DNA of 64,000 bases, taken from positions 1 through 64,000 of the forward strand of contig MWDO01000009.1 of the NCBI GenBank assembly GCA_002070605.1, in the 5' to 3' direction. Every line of letters begins with the position of its first letter. Position 1 is the stretch's first letter. Shown here in pieces: positions 8,267 through 56,012 of the stretch. The notes under the pieces are model-generated. The model saw nothing but the letters and a program-made list of their open reading frames with translations. It searched no databases and was not told the DNA's origin. Made by a program: the position numbers and the translations under genes. This stretch comes from Spirochaetes bacterium ADurb.Bin133 (GTDB lineage Bacteria; Spirochaetota; GWE2-31-10; MWDO01).

Positions 8267-8444
8267 GTAACTCGTCGGTTTTTTGGGGTTTAATAGTTAA
8301 AAATATCTGACACATATGCGTCGAATTTATTTATCAAGGAGCGGCGCGGCGCATATGCGTCGAATTTTTTCATCAAGGAGCGGCGCGGCGGCTATGCAGC
8401 TCCATATGTGTCAATTTCCTCTCCACAAAAAAACCGACGGGCGT
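8267..8444. mobile_element. Repeat element E3, both ends, three CATATG sites
   Basis: The left end is GTAACTCGTCGGTTTTTTGG and the right end CACAAAAAAACCGACGGGCG. Inside are CATATG cores at 8313, 8352 and 8403, separated by GC-rich units that include GGAGCGGCGCGGCG. A direct repeat TTTTATATT lies at 8258-8266 and 8445-8453, a possible 9-bp target duplication, though the AT-rich sequence makes chance matches more likely. The element sits between two divergent signalling genes and fills most of this gap. Confidence 0.75.
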
Positions 8445-14731: not shown

Positions 14732-16891
14732 CTAGAGACCGATTTGATCGGCGACCTCCTTCATGGAATCTACGCCTATTTCGACAAATTCCTCCAAAGT
14801 CAGTCCAATTTTTTCGCAAAGTAAAATATTTTCGCGGCTAACGTTTGCGGCGAAAAGTTTCTCCTTCATCCGTTTAACTACCGATTTTGGTTTAACGCCG
14901 GCTACTTTTTTATCGGGGTAGACTTTAGCCGTCGCCGCTATAAGCCCGGTCAGACTCTCGGCTGCCGTCAGCGCAAAATCGATAAAGTTAGTTCTTACCG
15001 TTCCGTTGCCCTCTTCGTTATGAGATTTGATCGCTTGGACTACAAGTTCGTTAACGCCAAGTTTGGAAAGCCAATCTCCCCCTATTAATCCGTGTTTGTC
15101 CATAACGGGTCCAATCTCGTCGAGGTCTATATCGTGCAGAAGCCCCGTATAGTAATAATTTTGCTCGTTAAGACCAAATTTCTTAGCGATACCTTTCATA
15201 ACGGCTCCGCTCGATATGGAATGCGATATCAGACTCTCTTTTTTAATTTTTTCGGCAAATAACTTATCTAACTTATCGTATTCGACTCCCAAATCGTCTA
15301 TGTCTATAGGGGGGAGCTTTGTAGAATCGCCGCTCTTTTTTGAATCGACCTTTGGGAAATTACAATTATCGTTTTTAGAAGCGGCGTTATCTAACGGCTC
15401 ATCCTTTTTGTCCGTTTCGCATTCTGAATCTATCGGTCTCATCAAAGGAAATAAAACGACTTCTCTTAAATTTTCTTGATTAGTCAAAAGAGCTACAAAT
15501 CTATCTATACCCATTCCAAAACCTGAGATAGGGGGCATTCCGTATTCCATACAGATTATAAAGTCCTCTTCCATAATCATAGCTTCTTCGTCCCCTTTTT
15601 CTCGTTCGGCTGCCTGTTTTAGCAATCTCTCTCTTTGATCGATAGGATCTATAAGCTCTGAATATGCGTTGACTACTTCCCAACCGTTCACAACCAGTTG
15701 AAATCTATCGGCGATTAGGGGCTCGTTATCGTTTCTTCTGGCTAGAGGAGAGAGGTCGATCGGATGATGAATCAGAAATTGAGGATTAATCATCTTAGGT
15801 CTCGCCACTTTTTTGTAAAGTTGATCAATAAGATTGCCTCTGCCTATTCTATTGAAATCAACCCCCTCAAGAATAATCTTTTTCTCTTTGATAATTTTCA
15901 CGAGATCGTCTTTCTCGGGATATTGGTCGATATCTATATCGGCGTGGCGCAATATCAGATCGCGAAAACTTGTTCTGGGCCATTCGCCGTCGAAATCTAT
16001 CTTCGTCCCCATATAATCAAGCTGTAAACCGCCGTGAACTTCTAAAAGTATCTGTTTAATTAACTTTTCAGTAAAATTCATATTGTCTATATAATTCCAA
16101 TAAGCGGCGTAGTATTCGACCATTGTGAATTCCTGCAGATGACTCGGATCTATACCTTCGTTTCTAAAACATCTGCCCATATCGTAAACCCGGTCAAAAC
16201 CGCCGGCTATCAGACGTTTTAAGTAAGTTTCGGGAGCTATACGAAGATACATATCAATATCTAACGTGTTATGGTGAGTTTTGAATGGTTTGGCAAGAGC
16301 TCCCGAAGGTTTGACCTGTAACATCGGGGTTTCAACCTCTACAAAGTCGTTATCGTTAAGAAATTTTCTAATAACGTTTATAAGTTTGGTTCTTTTTAAA
16401 AATCTGCTTCTGGTCTCGGGATTCATAATAAGATCGAGATATCTTTGTCTTGAACGGGACTCAAGATCCGTAATTCCGTGAAATTTCTCGGGAAGAGGTC
16501 TGATAGACTTTGATAAAAGTTCGTATTTATCGACTCTTAGCGTAAGCTCCCCCTTTTCAGTGCGGTATATCTCTCCGTAAACCGATATAAAGTCTCCAAC
16601 GTCTATCATTTTTTCAAAAAACTTAAAGTTTTCTTCATCAAGATTTTTTTTATTTAAAGATATTTGTATCCGATCGTAAAAATCTTGAATAGTCGCGAAA
16701 ATTAATTTCCCAAACGATCTTTTCAACACAAGTCTTCCGGCTAGATTAATATTGTTTGCGCCGACGTTTAATTTACGCGCTTCGGCAATATTGCAGGTTC
16801 TTTCGCATCTGTCTAGATATGGATTCCTTCCCGCCTCTCTGATTTTTTCGACCTTTTGGATTCTTACGTCTCTTTCGTCGCTTGGATTCAT
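14732..16891 (-). CDS. lysS: Lysyl-tRNA synthetase (class II) fused to an HD-domain
   Basis: The 719-residue protein is much longer than a normal class II LysRS (about 490-510). Residues up to about 490 are the synthetase: OB-fold anticodon domain, motif 2 (YDMGRCFRNEGIDPSHLQEF), and motif 3 (FGMGIDRFVALL). A Ser/Lys/Asp-rich linker (about 490-530) leads to a C-terminal HD domain: HSISSGAVMKGIAKKFGL, then LLHDIDLDEIGP with the His-Asp pair near residue 588, and AIKSHNEEG. The tail (LTLEEFVEIGVDSMKEVA) is also found in free-standing HD proteins of this type. The frame is continuous, so it appears to be a true fusion. The HD part could hydrolyse a phosphoester such as a nucleotide; its substrate is unknown. 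Confidence 0.93.
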   Translation of the reverse strand: MNPSDERDVRIQKVEKIREAGRNPYLDRCERTCNIAEARKLNVGANNINLAGRLVLKRSFGKLIFATIQDFYDRIQISLNKKNLDEENFKFFEKMIDVGDFISVYGEIYRTEKGELTLRVDKYELLSKSIRPLPEKFHGITDLESRSRQRYLDLIMNPETRSRFLKRTKLINVIRKFLNDNDFVEVETPMLQVKPSGALAKPFKTHHNTLDIDMYLRIAPETYLKRLIAGGFDRVYDMGRCFRNEGIDPSHLQEFTMVEYYAAYWNYIDNMNFTEKLIKQILLEVHGGLQLDYMGTKIDFDGEWPRTSFRDLILRHADIDIDQYPEKDDLVKIIKEKKIILEGVDFNRIGRGNLIDQLYKKVARPKMINPQFLIHHPIDLSPLARRNDNEPLIADRFQLVVNGWEVVNAYSELIDPIDQRERLLKQAAEREKGDEEAMIMEEDFIICMEYGMPPISGFGMGIDRFVALLTNQENLREVVLFPLMRPIDSECETDKKDEPLDNAASKNDNCNFPKVDSKKSGDSTKLPPIDIDDLGVEYDKLDKLFAEKIKKESLISHSISSGAVMKGIAKKFGLNEQNYYYTGLLHDIDLDEIGPVMDKHGLIGGDWLSKLGVNELVVQAIKSHNEEGNGTVRTNFIDFALTAAESLTGLIAATAKVYPDKKVAGVKPKSVVKRMKEKLFAANVSRENILLCEKIGLTLEEFVEIGVDSMKEVADQIGL

Positions 16892-17044: not shown

Positions 17045-17480
17045 GGCGCCCGTCGGTCTTTTGGGGTAAGGAAATGGATAACGCGAGTCTGTCTCAAAAA
17101 AAAATTGACACATATGGAGCTATACCCGCCGCGGCGCGTCCCGATAGAAATTGACACATATGGAGCTATACGCGCCGACAAAATTTGACACATATGGGTC
17201 TCATAACCGCCGCGGGCGTTCTCCGATGAAAATTGACACATATGCGTCGCTATGTTCCCTGCTGAAAAATTGACACATATGGAGCTACATACGCCACGGC
17301 TACTCCCCGATGAATAAATTGACACATATGGAGCTATACTCGCCGCGCCGCTCCCCGATGAATAAATTGACACATATGGGTCTCATAACCGCCGCGGGCG
17401 TTCTCCGATGAAAATTGACACATATGGAGCTATACTCGCCGCGCCGCTTCCTGATGAAAATTTGACACATATGAAACGCT
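17045..17480. repeat. Repeat element E5: nine-copy CATATG array with left end
   Basis: The left end is GGCGCCCGTCGGTCTTTTGG (from 17045). Nine CATATG cores follow at 17111, 17157, 17191, 17239, 17276, 17325, 17373, 17421 and 17468; most spacings are 46-49 bp, two are shorter (34, 37). Each unit reads TTGACACATATG plus GAGCTATA or GGTCTCATAA, a GC-rich segment (CGCCGCGCCGCTCC), and CCGATGAA. The segments between cores are themselves repeats, so this is not a CRISPR array. No right end is visible; the array stops just before the GNAT gene. It fills the 602-bp gap between lysS and the GNAT gene. Confidence 0.8.
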
Positions 17481-17493
17481 GAAAAGCCGTACT

Positions 17494-18423
17494 TCAAAAA
17501 TAAATCAGAGCGGCGTCGTATAGGATCGTAAATCCGAGAGATTTGTAAACGGATATAGCGGGGATGTTCTCTTTTTTGACGTATAGATATACGGAATCTT
17601 TTTTATCCAGAAGTTTGCCGGTTAGGGAGGATACGCATATTTTTGATAATCCCCGATTTCTGAAATTCTTTAGCGTATAGACGCCGCCGATTTGATACGA
17701 ATTTTGCGATTCGGCGTTGACGTTTGCTTTCGATACCGCTAAACCTCCTTCGTTGAAGACGGCGTAATTTATTCTCTTAGATAACAACTTTTTGTACGCC
17801 GTCATTTCATAATCGTAGGGGTAGTAAGAATCGTCGTTGTAGACCTCTTCCAGATGGTAATTGTAATGAAGATTTTTTAAGCTTTCAAAATCTTTATCGG
17901 AGCATTTGACGCAGTCGTACGGATATTTTATCGGCTTATCCGGTATAAAGGAATGTATGTCGGTTTTCATAAAATGATATTTTATTATGTTTCTCGGCTT
18001 TGACGATAAATTTTTCAGAATTAGGTTCAGAAATTTTTCTTCTATGTACATAGAATGTAAATTTACCGGACTTTTTTTGATTATATCGACAATTTTTGTC
18101 ATATCTTCGGGGTTTTTTATATAAAAGTTTCCCGAATTTGTATACGCCGCCATTGAATATATCAAATTATTTTGATATAAAGGGTTCAGATGCGTTCCGT
18201 TCGGGATTTTATGGTAATTTCCGTTAAATTTATCAAGAATTTGAATAAAAAAATTGTCGTTTTTTAGGAGATAATCTATAATCTCTTTTGTTTCTTGAGA
18301 TTTAATAGGCGTTACCCGACAGCTCGTCGACGTATTCCATGGCGAACTTCGCCGCTTTTGCTCCGTCCCCGCAAGCGCAGACGATCTGTCTGTACGCGTC
18401 GGCTCGAACGTCTCCGGCGGCAT
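17494..18423 (-). CDS. GNAT-family acetyltransferase-like protein
   Basis: The C-terminal part (about residues 175-305) has the GNAT pattern: YQIGGVYTLKNFRNRGLS includes the acetyl-CoA loop, followed by VYLYVKKENIPAISVYKSLG. The N-terminal region is less recognisable. The first ATG lies 122 bp inside trxB, and the first ~40 codons are just the other frame of trxB, so the true start is probably near 18306, at a non-ATG codon right after the trxB stop. Translation is likely coupled to trxB. The acceptor substrate is unknown. Confidence 0.75.
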   Translation of the reverse strand: MPPETFEPTRTDRSSALAGTEQKRRSSPWNTSTSCRVTPIKSQETKEIIDYLLKNDNFFIQILDKFNGNYHKIPNGTHLNPLYQNNLIYSMAAYTNSGNFYIKNPEDMTKIVDIIKKSPVNLHSMYIEEKFLNLILKNLSSKPRNIIKYHFMKTDIHSFIPDKPIKYPYDCVKCSDKDFESLKNLHYNYHLEEVYNDDSYYPYDYEMTAYKKLLSKRINYAVFNEGGLAVSKANVNAESQNSYQIGGVYTLKNFRNRGLSKICVSSLTGKLLDKKDSVYLYVKKENIPAISVYKSLGFTILYDAALIYF

Positions 18424-26691: not shown

Positions 26692-26731
26692 ATCGACGCT
26701 AGATAGAATATAGTAACCGGAGCCTTCCCTA

Positions 26732-26875
26732 GTAACTTGTCAGTTTTTTGGGAAATTAAAAGTATTTGTTTCATATGTGTCAATTTTATTTGTCTCATAT
26801 GCGTCGAATTTTTCATCAAAGAGCGCTTGCGGCGCATATGCGTCATTTCCCCACCCAAAAAAACTGACGGATTAC
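26732..26875. mobile_element. Repeat element E7 with perfect 9-bp target duplication
   Basis: The ends are GTAACTTGTCAGTTTTTTGG and, read inward on the other strand, GTAATCCGTCAGTTTTTTTG. The 9-bp sequence CCTTCCCTA stands directly outside both ends (26723-26731 and 26876-26884), the mark left by transposition. Inside are the subterminal module (ATTAAAAGTATTTGTTTC) and CATATG cores at 26772, 26796 and 26835. At 144 bp it has no coding capacity. The right-hand duplication contains the stop codon of the glycosyltransferase gene. Confidence 0.9.
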
Positions 26876-26881
26876 CCTTCC

Positions 26882-27694
26882 CTATGCAATCGGGAAAGTT
26901 TTTTTATTTAATAATATTTTTAATACGCGGTTAAAGCGGTTGAAGATATATAAATAAAGATTCTTAAAGTAAAAATAAATTGAATAGTGTTTTTTAATAA
27001 TTTTTAGTCTATCGCTCCAACATCCTCTGAAATTTGCCCCTGAGAAACCGTCTGCGAGGTATTTTGACAAAATATAATCCGTATTAAAATTATATCCGCT
27101 CTTTTTCAAGATTTTAATAATCCAATCGTGGTCGGATACGTAACGGTAGCTCAAATCGTAATATTCGGTCAATTCTTTTTTGACAATTAAACTCTGATGC
27201 GAAACAACCATTCCGTTTGAGAACGAGTATCTATCCAATCTTTTAGGAACGGAAGTAATCTTTATAAGCCCGCCGGCTTTGTCGTAAAGGGCGGTTTTAC
27301 CGTAGATAACGTCGGGATAAAGGCTTCCGTCGAGCGCGTTAAAAACGTTCGACGCCGTATTTTCGTCGTATATTTCGTCGCCCGAGTTTATAAACCATAC
27401 GTAGTCGCCGGTTGCGAGTTTTAGCCCCTTATTCATAGCGTCGTATATACCGGCATCCTTTTCGCTCATAATTATTGATATTCTATCTCTATATCCGGCG
27501 ACTATATCCATCGTTCTATCGGTAGAAGCGCCGTCAATAATAATATACTCAATATTATCGTAGCGCTGGTTTATAACGCTTAATATAGTTTGTTCTATGT
27601 AATTTTCCGAGTTATATACTACGGTTATAACTGAAATCTTTGGATTCCTGCTTTTTTCTATATCTTCCATAATTTTTCTATTATCGCAAAACAA
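26882..27694 (-). CDS. Family 2 glycosyltransferase
   Basis: The 270-residue protein has a GT-A fold: PKISVITVVYNSENYIEQTI at the start, IIIDGASTDRT, DAGIYDAMNKGLKLATGDYV with the NSGDE metal-binding region after it, and a C-terminal basic region. It should transfer a sugar from a nucleotide donor to a surface polysaccharide or lipid. ATG codons at 27694 and eight codons later are both possible starts. It is alone between two repeat elements, and its last codons lie in the target duplication of element E7. Confidence 0.92.
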   Translation of the reverse strand: MFCDNRKIMEDIEKSRNPKISVITVVYNSENYIEQTILSVINQRYDNIEYIIIDGASTDRTMDIVAGYRDRISIIMSEKDAGIYDAMNKGLKLATGDYVWFINSGDEIYDENTASNVFNALDGSLYPDVIYGKTALYDKAGGLIKITSVPKRLDRYSFSNGMVVSHQSLIVKKELTEYYDLSYRYVSDHDWIIKILKKSGYNFNTDYILSKYLADGFSGANFRGCWSDRLKIIKKHYSIYFYFKNLYLYIFNRFNRVLKILLNKKTFPIA

Positions 27695-27853
27695 CTTTTA
27701 GTAACTAATATACGGGCGATCTCAGCGATTCAAAAAAGTCGCTAAGCGCCTTCTTAAAACATACTAAATCTGAAATAACGTTTCCAGATTGTCGAGTATC
27801 ATATTAAATAAGCCTAATTAAGTCAATTTTTTTTTAAGGCGCCCCGTCGGTTT

Positions 27854-28369
27854 CTACGTATAATAGACGTATTTGGGATAATTTTTGATTACAAGCTCGT
27901 ATAATAGCTGTTTTCGAGCGGCGATATTTAACAGTTGTGTCATTTTATCCAAAAAGTCGTTTTGCAACTTATCAATCCTTAATTTTTTACCAACAAACTC
28001 AAGAAATCCTTCCAACCCGTATTTCACGACGCCGTTATAGAAAAACAAGATAATATCTCGAACCGTCGAAGCCATACCGAATTCGTTATACAAAGAATGC
28101 CATCTTTTAATTTGAAGATAGTCCGCTTCGCTAATCCTGAGGTATTTATCCAGCCTTTTATCGTCGGTATTGTCTATAACGGCGTATTCGGAGCGATAAT
28201 TCCCGATTATTCCTTTCATCTTTGGTATTTTTTTGTTAACAAGACGAAACATAGTTTCAAATAACTCGCTGAATGTATTAATTTTGAACTCTTTTAGTAA
28301 AAAATCTATGACGTTGTTATTCATAGATTCGGATACTATAAAATGAAATAGATGCTTTTTGTTTTTCAT
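27854..28369 (-). CDS. Element-borne double-RHH-like protein
   Basis: The 171-residue protein starts after AAGGAG and has no membrane helix. Two segments look like ribbon-helix-helix units: residues 6-45 (LFHFIVSESM, then helices ending FSELFETMFRLV) and residues 76-112 (strand YLRISEADYLQIKRW, then GMASTVRDIILFFY). The second fits the RHH pattern of a short strand followed by two helices well. The C-terminal third is helical and basic. A near-identical copy begins at 167, and a divergent relative is at 3376-3951. It has no transposase motif. As an RHH protein it would bind palindromic DNA as a dimer; the CATATG palindromes upstream of its own gene are natural candidates. Both points are inference. 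Confidence 0.75.
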   Translation of the reverse strand: MKNKKHLFHFIVSESMNNNVIDFLLKEFKINTFSELFETMFRLVNKKIPKMKGIIGNYRSEYAVIDNTDDKRLDKYLRISEADYLQIKRWHSLYNEFGMASTVRDIILFFYNGVVKYGLEGFLEFVGKKLRIDKLQNDFLDKMTQLLNIAARKQLLYELVIKNYPKYVYYT

Positions 28370-28390
28370 AAAATTTTCTCCTTTTTTTTA

Positions 28391-28418
28391 TATATATAAC
28401 AACTAAAAGTAGAAAACG
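28391..28418 (-). promoter_or_regulatory. Conserved upstream block of the RHH-like gene (copy 3)
   Basis: This is the same TTTTCTACTTTTAGTTGTTA plus TATATAT block as at 191-217, with the variant at 3304-3334. It is 22-49 bp upstream of the start codon. A CATATG palindrome half-site lies about 100 bp upstream of the gene. Confidence 0.5.
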
Positions 28419-28722
28419 TTATACAAAAATTTGGATAAATTTTTAATAAACGACAAATATTTATCTCATATGTGTCAATTTCTCCTACTTTCCAAAACGC
28501 TGAAAGTAATGAAGGCGTCTTAGCTGAAAATATTTGTCCCATATGTGTCAATTTATTCCTAAGATCATATGTGTCAATACCAAAAAACCGAAGGGACGCT
28601 TTTTAACAAAAAATAATATTGACACTAATTTTAAATATGGTAAAAAGTCATACAAGTATAGACGCATATTTTTACGCTTTTATTATAGCGGAAATATTTG
28701 CGCAACGTTATAGGATGTATAG

Positions 28723-32373: not shown

Positions 32374-32472
32374 TAGCCCTGTCGGTTTTTTGGGGAATGA
32401 AAAATAATTTACTAATTAAAAATATCTGTTTCATATGTGTCATTTTCTCACCCCAAAAAACCGAAGAGCGCT
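32374..32472. mobile_element. Repeat element E9, both ends, one CATATG site
   Basis: The left end contains CTGTCGGTTTTTTGGGG and the right end CCCCAAAAAACCGAAGAGCG, so the two pair over about 14 bp. Inside are the module AATTAAAAATATCTGTTTC and one CATATG core at 32432. Flanks TTGTCTACG and TTGTTTATT agree at 6 of 9 positions, possibly a decayed duplication. This is the simplest complete form of the family. Confidence 0.75.
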
Positions 32473-34764: not shown

Positions 34765-35077
34765 CGCGCCCGTCGGTTTCTTGAAATTGACGCATATGTG
34801 TCAAAAATAAAAATGACACATATGGAGCTACATACGCGCGACAATTGACACATATGGCGCTGTATACGCCGCGCCGTTCCCCGATATAAATTCGACGCAT
34901 ATGGGATATTTTGTTTCTAACGGCGCAAGCCCCGATAAGGTCGCGGCATGAACATTTTTTAGTATTTTAGTATATTCAAAACGGGAATTCCCACTTTTAT
35001 CGGGGCGCAACAATTGTCGCATAAAAAATTGACGCATATGGAACGCCGGAGAATCCCTAAAAAAGCCGGCGGGTTAC
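34765..35077. mobile_element. Repeat element E10, both ends, with a nested GGGAATTCCC repeat
   Basis: The left end is CGCGCCCGTCGGTTTCTTG and the right end CCTAAAAAAGCCGGCGGGTT. CATATG cores are at 34793, 34819, 34851, 34898 and 35035. A partial copy of the second repeat family (TATATTCAAAACGGGAATTC) lies at about 34971-34992, so one repeat has been inserted in or recombined with the other. A diverged left arm and no clear target duplication suggest an old copy. Confidence 0.75.
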
Positions 35078-35154
35078 CGTAAATAGAAAACTTTATATTG
35101 TTTTTTCAATTTTGATATGGTAGTATAAACGAAAAAACTGCGGAGAAGAAAAAA

Positions 35155-35571: not shown

Positions 35572-35949
35572 TTTGTCCTGGGCGCGTATGAATATTTTTG
35601 GTTACGGCAAAAACTATCATAAATTTTGCGTTAATAGCGTTTCTTTATAACAGAGCTCTGTTTCCAAAATAGACCGCAAACAGGTTTAAAGCTTGCCCCC
35701 AATTCTGTATGGGCGTCGTCAGCTTTTTTGACGCTTTTATCAATGCAAGATACAGCGTTCTATGTAACCCGTCGGTTTCTTGAGGAGAGTAAATGACACA
35801 TATGGAACGACGCATGTGAATTGACACATATGGAACAAATATTTTTAATTCCCCAAAAAAACCGACGGGCGTAAAGTATAACTTTTTTTATTGATTTTAA
35901 GTCAAATTTATGTTTTAATCTGGTAAAAAATAATATAAGGACATATTTT
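35572..35949. other. Intergenic region with repeat element E11
   Basis: Between the PilZ-like gene and the ligase gene, no coding sequence was recognised. The first ~190 bp holds nothing clear, element E11 occupies 35764-35872, and the rest is AT-rich promoter-like DNA. Confidence 0.6.
35764..35872. mobile_element. Repeat element E11, both ends, two CATATG sites
   Basis: The left end is GTAACCCGTCGGTTTCTTGA and the right end CCCCAAAAAAACCGACGGGC. CATATG cores are at 35799 and 35827, and the subterminal module appears inverted (GGAACAAATATTTTTAATT). Size is 109 bp. Confidence 0.78.
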
Positions 35950-38878: not shown

Positions 38879-39298
38879 GTATCCCGTCGGTTTTTTGAAA
38901 TTCGACGCATATGATGTCTGTCATTTCGACGAGCGTAGCGAGGAGAAATCCTTCTATATGCCGGAGATAAAACTATTCGCTACGCTCGCGCGCGCCCCTT
39001 AAGGCGAAATGACACATATGGAGCTATATGCGCCGCGGCGCCGCTTCCCGATAGAAATTCGACGCATATGGAGCTATATGCCGCGGCGCGCTCCCCGACG
39101 AATAAATTGACACATATAAGACGCAGCGCTCTTCAATAAAAAAAATGACACATATGCGAGGCGTCGATAACGCGCGACAATTGTCGTATAAGAAAATTCG
39201 ACGCATATGATGTTAAGAATAAAATTGGAGCATATGTGTCAATTTAAAAGAACTGTTTAAAAAGTTGTCATTTCCCCCAAAAAAAACCGACGGCGCGC
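38879..39298. mobile_element. Repeat element E12 with near-perfect 9-bp target duplication and nested hairpin
   Basis: The left end is GTATCCCGTCGGTTTTTTGA and the right end, read inward, GCGCGCCGTCGGTTTTTTTT. The flanks AAGTATTAT (38870-38878) and AAGCATTAT (39299-39307) differ at one base, a likely target duplication. CATATG cores are at 38908, 39015, 39065, 39151, 39203 and 39231. A separate hairpin repeat is nested at about 38918-39014. The right flank contains the stop codon of the ntrX-like gene. It fills the gap between ttcA and ntrX. Confidence 0.85.
38918..39014. repeat. Nested TGTCATTTCGACGAGCG hairpin repeat
   Basis: TGTCATTTCGACGAGCGTAG at the left and CGCTACGCTCG...CGAAATGACA at the right form a long imperfect hairpin. 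Closely similar TGTCATTTCGA...GAAATC repeats are scattered in many bacterial genomes (established knowledge, recalled rather than searched). Its right arm runs into the next GACACATATG core. Confidence 0.65.
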
Positions 39299-45625: not shown

Positions 45626-46090
45626 CTTTTCACCTTAGAAATATTGTCTACCCATTCTAAAATATTTTTAGAAAAAAAGGAAATATTTTTTAAATTTACT
45701 TACAAAAAACAAAAAAAAACAACTATTTTAACTTTTTTTTGACGTCGCTGAAAATAATCAATTATAAAGTAAAACTCTATAAATATCAATAGAATGTTGC
45801 AACTATATGCGTCCCGTCGGTTTTTTGGGGATTTGCCGGCGTCGCATATGCGTCAAATTTTATCGGGGAGCGCGACGCATATAGGGCTTTTTTTATATCG
45901 CAGGGCAAATTGACACATATGCGTCGAATTTCTATCGAGGAATAGCCGCGGCGGCTATGCGACCCATATGTGTCAATTTTTATCGAGGAGCGGCGCGGCG
46001 CGTATAGCTCCATATGCGTCGAATTTAAGAGACTATTTCAACACATTGCATATGTGTCAAATTATTTTTAATCCCATATGCGTCGAATTT
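45626..46090. other. Gap between rpoN and vapC, mostly repeat element E13
   Basis: From 45626 to 45808 the DNA is very AT-rich and should include the rpoN promoter; nothing else was recognised. From 45809 on it is the repeat element. Confidence 0.55.
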
Positions 46091-46095
46091 TTATG
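45809..46095. repeat. Repeat element E13, left end, six CATATG sites
   Basis: The left end is GCGTCCCGTCGGTTTTTTGG. CATATG cores are at 45845, 45916, 45965, 46011, 46049 and 46075, with a degenerate one near 45879; GC-rich GGAGCGGCGCGGCG units lie between. There is no right end: the array runs straight into the vapC stop codon (46091-46093), whose last codons lie in a GCATAAAAATTCGACGCATA stretch of repeat. Confidence 0.75.
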
Positions 46096-46492
46096 CGTTA
46101 ATTATTTTTATTTCGGTCATATTTTCAAAATCTGATTTGTTTACAGTTCCAATTGTATCAATCCCGCTTGATAACATTATGGACGCTATCTCAATATCAA
46201 ATATTTTATTTCCAACGGGCTTATATTTGATAACAAAATCTTTAAATATTTCTAAACTATTTTTATTAGTATATAGTACTGTGAAATTATTATATAAACT
46301 TAAAAATTTTTTTTCAATAAAACTATACTCTATATTTTTGTTTTTTGACAATACATTCACAAACTCTGTAATATTTTTTGAAGTAATAAAGCAGTCATAA
46401 GAATTAATTAATTTATTAGAAAATTCATAATAGATCGAATTTCTATCTATCGAATATATTAATATGTTTGTATCTAAAACAATTTTATTCAT
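46091..46492 (-). CDS. vapC: PIN-domain toxin (VapC-like)
   Basis: The 133-residue protein has PIN features: VLDTNILIYSID with the first acidic residue, a conserved Glu in TEFVNVL, and FDIEIASIMLSSGIDTIGTVNKSDF with the last acidic positions. PIN toxins cut RNA. Its start overlaps the antitoxin gene by 8 bp. The codon composition is more AT-rich than in neighbouring core genes, consistent with acquisition. The 3' end is fused to repeat element E13. Confidence 0.9.
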   Translation of the reverse strand: MNKIVLDTNILIYSIDRNSIYYEFSNKLINSYDCFITSKNITEFVNVLSKNKNIEYSFIEKKFLSLYNNFTVLYTNKNSLEIFKDFVIKYKPVGNKIFDIEIASIMLSSGIDTIGTVNKSDFENMTEIKIINA

Positions 46493-46718
46493 AAGCTATT
46501 TCTCTAACATTTTTATCGTCATAAAATCCCTTCAAATCCAAAGTATCTTTATCCCAGCCGTTTTTAGAATTATTATTAATTATTTCTTGATAATTCTTTA
46601 AGATTAAATAACCAATAAGATTATTTATATTACGGTTTTGTTCTTTACAAAGATATTTTAATTTTGCTTCAATTTCTCTATCAAGATATATTGTTGTAAC
46701 ATATTTTTCTTTTTTCAT
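46485..46718 (-). CDS. vapB: Antitoxin with RHH-like N-terminus (VapB-like)
   Basis: The 77-residue protein begins with a strand plus helix that fits ribbon-helix-helix antitoxins (KYVTTIYLDREIEAKLKYLC, then NINNLIGYLILKNYQE). The C-terminal ~30 residues would bind the toxin. The pair would repress its own promoter, which lies in the 75 bp before element E14. AAAG-rich sequence rather than a strong ribosome-binding site precedes the ATG. Confidence 0.82.
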   Translation of the reverse strand: MKKEKYVTTIYLDREIEAKLKYLCKEQNRNINNLIGYLILKNYQEIINNNSKNGWDKDTLDLKGFYDDKNVREIAYE

Positions 46719-46786
46719 TTTTTTGCCTCTTTATTTAAATGTAATATAGTTTTTATTAATTATCAATATTATTTTAATATTATTTT

Positions 46787-46916
46787 GTAATTCGTCGGCT
46801 TTTTGGGTGGGGAATTTGACACATATGCGTCGAATTTTTGTCGGGGAGCGGCGCGGCGGTATGCAGCTCCATATGTGTCAATTTATTTTCCCTCCCCAAA
46901 AAACCGACGGGATACT
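46787..46916. mobile_element. Repeat element E14, both ends, two CATATG sites
   Basis: The left end is GTAATTCGTCGGCTTTTTGG and the right end CCCCAAAAAACCGACGGGAT. CATATG cores at 46822 and 46870 are separated by one GC-rich unit (GGAGCGGCGCGGCGGTATGC). It lies between the antitoxin and pcm genes. The flanks show no 9-bp duplication. Confidence 0.78.
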
Positions 46917-49581: not shown

Positions 49582-49836
49582 TTAACCCGTCGGTTTTTTG
49601 AAATTCGACGCATATGGAACAACTTTTTTTAATTAGTAAATTATTCGTCTCAATCCAACGCATATGCGTCGAATTTTATTCTTGACGCCATATGTGTCAT
49701 TTTATAGCAAGGAGCGGCGCGGCGGTATGTAGCCCATATGTGTCAATTTGTTTTTGACACATATGGGCTTTTTTATTTATTAGGGCGCATTGCATATGCG
49801 TCATTTTTTTTCTCTCCAAAAAAACTGACGGGATAC
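49582..49836. mobile_element. Repeat element E15, both ends, six CATATG sites
   Basis: The left end is TTAACCCGTCGGTTTTTTGA and the right end CCAAAAAAACTGACGGGATA. CATATG cores are at 49611, 49661, 49689, 49735, 49760 and 49793. The two ends differ at one place where the change leaves a G-T pair (CGG against CTG). No 9-bp duplication is seen. Confidence 0.77.
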
Positions 49837-55860: not shown

Positions 55861-56012
55861 GTAATTCGTCGGTTTTTTGGGGAGGGAAAATAAATTGACA
55901 CATATGGAGCTGCATAGCCGCCGCTCCTCGATAAAAAAATGACACATATGTGTCAAAAAATAAATTGACACATATGGGACGCCGGCAAATCCCCAAAAAA
56001 CCGACGGGGCGC
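55861..56012. mobile_element. Repeat element E17, both ends, three CATATG sites
   Basis: The left end is GTAATTCGTCGGTTTTTTGG and the right end CCCCAAAAAACCGACGGGGC, which pair over about 18 bp. CATATG cores are at 55901, 55945 and 55971; the middle one is a complete palindrome (GACACATATGTGTC). No 9-bp duplication was found. Confidence 0.8.

Follow-up and report, generated by a model that had tools for sequence, protein, structure and literature searches.

The nine-core array located between lysS and a GNAT gene in the 64,000-nucleotide stretch of DNA analysed here (the window) is the inside of one copy among hundreds of small elements interspersed in the genome of an uncultured spirochaete-like bacterium. 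Inverted ends, target duplications, empty sites in a sister species, association with a gene, purifying selection, core conservation and modular reuse are observed in this family. We consider it likely that these elements form a genus-specific family of small transposable elements, that the array represents the internal sites of one copy, and that its core is the operator of the protein encoded by the full-length copies.

The array between lysS and the GNAT gene

The array is real and non-random. CATATG motifs start at positions 17111, 17157, 17191, 17239, 17276, 17325, 17373, 17421 and 17468, exactly as claimed in the original prediction, and every one of them lies within TTGACACATATG. On the forward strand, these cores occupy positions 17101-17480 and are set between modules of 34-49 bp. 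Core-to-core spacings are 46, 34, 48, 37, 49, 48, 48 and 47 bp, so that the announced periodicity of about 48 bp holds for six of the eight intervals and fails for the other two (34 and 37 bp). The sequence following the core is GAGCTAYA in five cases out of nine, GGTCTC in two, CGTCGCTA in one and AAACGC in one. The core next to CGTCGCTA is the sole near-complete palindrome of the array (GACACATATGCGTC). Two module interiors, one starting at 17191 and the other at 17373, have the same 42-nt sequence, and their neighbours are unrelated. In the whole window, 66 GACRCATATG half-sites were counted, as compared to 0.05 expected from shuffles. They correspond to 60 distinct cores, each palindrome being counted once.

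To its left, the array's element begins with an inverted end, GGCGCCCGTCGGTCTTTTGGGG, at 17045-17066 (forward strand), where a fuzzy scan for ends returned CCGTCGGTCTTTTGGGG at 17050. This end is followed by a left arm (TAAGGAAATGGATAACGCGAGTCTGTCTCAAAA...ATT; 17067-17106, forward strand) common to recent copies of about 100 bp elsewhere in the genome. The same arm is found in 100-bp elements such as that at positions 103165-103264 of contig C2, which is flanked by an exact 9-bp duplication. Alignment with the lysS region of the sister species (84% identity over 3.8 kb) ends at window position 17047, just as the left inverted end begins; beyond this position the sister species is no longer collinear. 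To the right, a possible degenerate end, AAAAGCCGTAC, was tentatively placed at 17484-17496 (forward strand) by comparison with the right ends seen at 35.04 and 55.99 kb.

The neighbouring lysyl-tRNA synthetase ORF (14732-16891, 719 aa) has an extra C-terminal segment of the HD type (HDIG/RNase Y-like) at residues 552-631. A lysyl-tRNA synthetase-HD fusion of the same length, with 90% identity, is present in the sister species. Two protein families of the window, a form of GreA and a sensor kinase of the Leptospira type, point to a spirochaete.

The arrays are enclosed in transposable elements

Clusters of cores are enclosed by CCGTCRGTTTTTTGGGG at one side and by its reverse complement at the other, within inverted ends of about 22 bp (GTAAYCCGTCRGTTTTTTGGGG). 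In 1.55 Mb of the genome, we collected 90 end-to-end elements, from 73 bp upward, and 89 of them contained the core. When five further bases (of GTAAY or GCGCC type) were counted as part of the end, 12 of the 90 elements had exact 9-bp flanking duplications, as compared to 0.14 expected from shuffled pairings. For four further elements, the flanking 9-mers matched at 8 of 9 positions. The sister species, which belongs to the same genus, is empty at the orthologous place of a single-core copy (contig C8, 47.1 kb) as well as at the places of two array-bearing copies, one at 29.1 kb of contig C8, with the duplication TTACCGACT, and one at 28 kb of contig C6. Therefore, the arrays sit within DNA that was inserted as a unit. 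Overall, the mobility of the element family is well supported, as is its association with a gene, described below.

Other elements of the window have the same organization. A complete element with three half-sites (26732-26875) is flanked by the exact 9-bp duplication CCTTCCCTA at 26723-26731 and 26876-26884. A long element of about 420 bp with six half-sites (38879-39298) has a target duplication matching at 8 of 9 positions (AAGTATTAT/AAGCATTAT). Both ends were also recognized around an internal array (8272-8440), around two cores (35769-35868 and 46792-46910), around three cores (55866-56007) and around six cores of mixed orientation (49587-49831). A single-core element is found at 32379-32467, and the sister species does not have it at that place.

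Some end-bounded regions contain other genes, which were named by eye. Between end-bounded core arrays, at window positions 45809-46915, lies a PIN-domain-like ORF (46091-46492, 133 aa). Elsewhere in the genome, end-bounded intervals at C1:147958-148769, C8:56955-58076 and C10:22270-23455 hold a HicA/HicB-like pair, an alpha/beta hydrolase-like ORF and an AT-rich GNAT-like ORF. These three intervals could represent cargo or two neighbouring elements.

An orphan gene is carried by the longer elements

Small ORFs repeatedly adjoin the sites in the sister species, and one of them was used as a search query. The corresponding protein of about 170 residues had 72 matches in the genome under study, one of them in the window, and 13 in the sister species. 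Elsewhere, weak matches only were obtained, in 2 of 29 other relatives. When 392 genomes of the phylum were searched with a profile, the only hits were in this genus and, as a distantly related family with several copies, in a single genome from another family of the same order; the viral contigs searched contained no relative of the protein.

The gene-carrying copies measure about 0.7-0.85 kb and successively contain the left end, a core or core array, a leader, the gene and the right end. Short elements share their ends with these copies, of which they are internal deletions as judged by correspondence. One gene-carrying copy is flanked by an exact 9-bp duplication (TCTCTATTA); in most others the duplications are decayed or absent. 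In the window, the gene-carrying element is on the reverse strand (27838-28599, with ends at about 27838-27855 and 28578-28599) and has three cores upstream of its gene, an ORF (27854-28369, reverse strand; 171 aa) encoding the orphan protein.

The core is found 112-185 bp upstream of the start codon in 11 of 11 gene copies of the sister species, and 102-139 bp upstream in all 38 copies of the genome under study for which upstream sequence is available. The sister copies show 51-77% protein identity and are mostly devoid of clear ends; all of them have the core. For 19 gene copies of the genome under study, the median dS was 0.44 and dN/dS was 0.13. The protein is therefore under strong purifying selection. 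Two homologous leaders of about 110 bp were also seen in the sister species (locus L138, 2328-2521 and 3330-3523), each with the palindrome at its end and each upstream of a different gene.

The orphan protein matches no transposase family and gave no confident match in Pfam, in NCBIfam or in the PDB, the latter being searched with the family profile. Ribbon-helix-helix hits obtained with distant homologues were below the Pfam threshold. When the family profile is split in two, its halves align with each other over 42 columns as beta-alpha-alpha (strand-helix-helix) repeats (P = 0.0008). Only a handful of polar positions never vary in the wider family (Y83, K87, H90 and R103), and no nuclease motif was recognized in it. 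A single-sequence AlphaFold model (pLDDT 47) was too poor for a fold search. The best reading of these data, which we hold with moderate confidence, is a predicted tandem ribbon-helix-helix DNA-binding protein. As the protein has this appearance, the core would most likely be its binding site.

Modules are reused as cassettes

Among 317 distinct modules, spacings cluster near 26, 38 and 48 bp. Because the modules are related by descent, the fractions lying within 1/8 turn of half-integer helical turns (54%) or near integer turns (11%) do not reflect independent events, and arrays of the sister species have spacings of 22 and 32 bp, near integer turns. Helical phasing is therefore not a general rule. 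The idea that bound proteins would alternate between faces of the helix is weakened by the near-integer spacing of the sister species.

Of 44 pairs of near-identical modules located at different places, 18 had no similar module on either side. Core-bounded modules thus behave as cassettes. Homologous recombination normally needs more length than the shared cores offer, so that a site-directed process is plausible.

A transposase associated with the element ends was not found in the part of the genome that was read. Larger end-to-end intervals, read by eye and only in part scanned against families, contained ordinary host genes or possible cargo and no recognized transposase. Serine resolvases/invertases (PF00239) are absent from the draft genomes of both species of the genus. 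IS4-type (DDE) transposases are absent, and both types were rejected as drivers. IS256-type transposases were discarded since only fragments, without element ends, were found. The only Y1 domain of the genome is embedded in a type IIG-like restriction-modification enzyme; this IS200-type domain lies in frame within the large protein (locus L148, C2:35627-35917). Because the repeats break the draft assembly, the missing transposase is weak evidence.

The core is conserved

The draft genome as a whole (2.99 Mb in 103 contigs) contains TTGACRCATATG 976 times, as compared to 0 for the reversed control. TTGACRCATATG occurs 43 times in the sister species and zero to three times in other relatives. 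The complete palindrome, GACRCATATGYGTC, was found at 187 places in the genome under study and at 35 in the sister species. A scan of a named genome collection with AATTGACACATATG gave only scattered, uninformative single matches, and in viral contigs the palindrome occurs once per contig, without arrays or ends.

In 1.22 Mb of the genome, only 20 of 514 sites are inside filtered ORFs as compared to about 455 expected. Conservation of the core was measured on modules anchored on their bodies and not on the core itself. Of 109 such modules, 80 have an intact core. With bodies that diverge at about 18% of positions, roughly 19 intact cores would be expected without constraint. Coding depletion and core conservation therefore speak against both refutations proposed for the array, namely an equal frequency of the motif in coding DNA and units evolving without conservation of the core.

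DNA uptake sequences are dense in coding DNA too and are common to related species. Such a role was rejected because of the coding depletion; moreover, the 43 sites of the sister species are accompanied by about none in more distant relatives. A promoter role (TTGACA-like -35) was also rejected, the elements having no orientation or position preference relative to genes.

The 14-bp palindrome was also seen inside Thr-rich linkers of predicted surface proteins, always in the (D/T)(A/T)Y(V/A) frame and up to eight times per ORF. These linkers are encoded at loci L139 (5134-5531), L134 (2837-4717), L143 and L130 of the sister species and at L116 (11541-13457) of the genome under study.

Solo cores occupy matching positions in both species at five orthologous loci. 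One of these is the intergenic region at 34765-35081 of the window, which contains an array, as opposed to a single solo site (TTGACACATATGTGTT) in the sister species. At one orthologous locus, GACGCATATGCGTT in one species faces GACGCGCATGCGTC in the other, a symmetric change by which the palindrome is kept in both. As the five loci were picked for having a site in the sister species, and as about a quarter of the gaps of the genome under study hold one, it is the exact position, more than the presence of a site, that constitutes the evidence. Within some arrays, at 34890-35030 of the window and at loci L124 and L126, there is also another recurrent nested palindromic repeat (AAACGGGAATTCCCG... 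with GCGACAATTGTCGC).

These results bear on the role of the core. The family might consist of MITEs whose core serves structure or mechanism alone, for instance as a module-joining junction, and is not an operator bound by a protein; its association with the gene would then reflect the common ancestry of the left part of the elements. Transposition is proven by the target duplications, the core belongs to the element so that copies inherit it, and module breaks do fall at the core. However, the diverged gene copies of the sister species retain the core although most of them have no clear ends, solo cores are found at the same positions in both species, and the core is far better conserved than the adjoining module sequence. 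We therefore judge a purely structural core improbable.

The arrays might also be binding sites for a chromosome-organising or regulatory protein, selected for the host, with the element as a secondary passenger. The conserved positions of solo sites, the symmetric change and the intergenic location go in this direction. Against it, element ends and 9-bp duplications enclose the arrays, whole arrays are missing at the orthologous empty sites and copy number differs more than 20-fold between two species of one genus. In addition, no bias was found in the orientation of sites relative to neighbouring genes. This makes selection for the host very improbable. Slimmer still is the probability of RNA-level elements (REP-like hairpins or terminators) selected on the transcript: some modules contain inverted GGAGC/GCTCC segments, and pairing between the two inverted ends would be possible, but an Rfam scan of the window matched no family, divergent gaps, where a terminator is not expected, are nearly as dense in element loci as convergent ones (3.7 vs 4.3 per kb of site-free gap), and the conserved part is the core rather than a hairpin body.

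Overall, gene association, core conservation and the coincidence of solo cores indicate that the core most likely functions as an operator for the protein of the element itself. The expandable binding-site array put forward in the original prediction is borne out in part: the core is symmetric, conserved and coding-depleted, a candidate binding protein is associated with it, and array size varies from one site to about ten. What had been missed is the enclosing transposable element, with its inverted ends and 9-bp target duplications, and the fact that modules are common to several loci as cassettes.

Proposed model

In the model that we favour, an element would consist of an inverted end of about 22 bp, one or more AATTGACRCATATG cores and a second inverted end. 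Full-length copies (about 0.7-0.85 kb) would add the leader and one gene of about 170 codons. Insertion would duplicate 9 bp, and most copies would have lost the gene by internal deletion, giving MITE-like forms from about 73 bp. The core would most likely act as the operator bound by the predicted tandem ribbon-helix-helix protein, because it is located about 120 bp before the start codon in essentially every copy of the two species. Array growth would come from modules with a core on either side, which would be duplicated or would pass between elements as cassettes. The extra cores would probably be added binding sites for the protein, which may contribute to mobility; array growth may be adaptive for the element, by aiding its own propagation or control.

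A bolder version of this model, which we regard as unlikely, would make the family a new kind of mobile element. Its sole protein, a small tandem ribbon-helix-helix DNA-binding protein outside the known transposase classes, would drive or license transposition via the operator arrays and direct the exchange of cassettes at the cores.

Comparison with known systems

The family looks like an undescribed, highly amplified family of transposable elements with operator cassettes, in which selection preserves dozens of intact copies of a single orphan gene. The family offers a testable protein-site pair, and its arrays, with between one and about ten sites, form a natural series. Such a series is useful for studying the multiplication and shuffling of short sites, and the benefit that a transposon draws from amplifying its own operator. 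The family also provides, in an unrelated bacterium, a parallel to the poorly understood mosaic elements of Neisseria.

CGTC-tagged REPs are stem-loops of 20-40 bp, most of them with a CCA-like tail at the end (PMC3733652). As in the present family, CGTC occurs near the ends of a palindromic repeat and no dedicated transposase is known (PMC3733652). Here, in contrast, CGTC is found in a 22-bp transposon end and in a loopless core. REP/BIME sequences associated with RAYT resemble the present repeats in being clustered, short, palindromic, intergenic and of high copy number. They differ in that the genome studied here has no free-standing Y1 transposase, hence no RAYT association, and in that 9-bp duplications and long inverted ends are present.

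The family also resembles prokaryotic MITEs. Terminal inverted repeats (CCGTCRGTTTTTTGGGG at both ends of the 90 elements in 1.55 Mb) and target-site duplications (12 of 90 exact at 9 bp, with empty sites) were found, and the short copies, of 73-410 bp, are non-coding, without any ORF of the element gene. Like MITEs, they are internally deleted from a longer gene-carrying element. Unlike MITEs, this longer element encodes only an orphan protein of about 170 aa and no recognizable transposase, and variable arrays of an internal palindrome are carried.

The nearest known analogue is the mosaic element of Neisseria (dRS3/RS), which works alike without including the present family as a member. In Neisseria, dRS3 are 20-bp inverted-repeat sites, about 700 per genome, that separate modules of 30-160 bp in intergenic arrays, and integrase-mediated recombination between them has been suggested (PMC3898611). 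Both systems have short inverted-repeat sites between shuffled modules, in intergenic arrays. The separator is, however, GACRCATATGYGTC here and not the ATTCCC-N8-GGGAAT of dRS3. Moreover, unlike the Neisseria mosaics, the arrays described here are enclosed within transposon-like ends with 9-bp target duplications, and their site precedes a multi-copy gene that the element itself carries.
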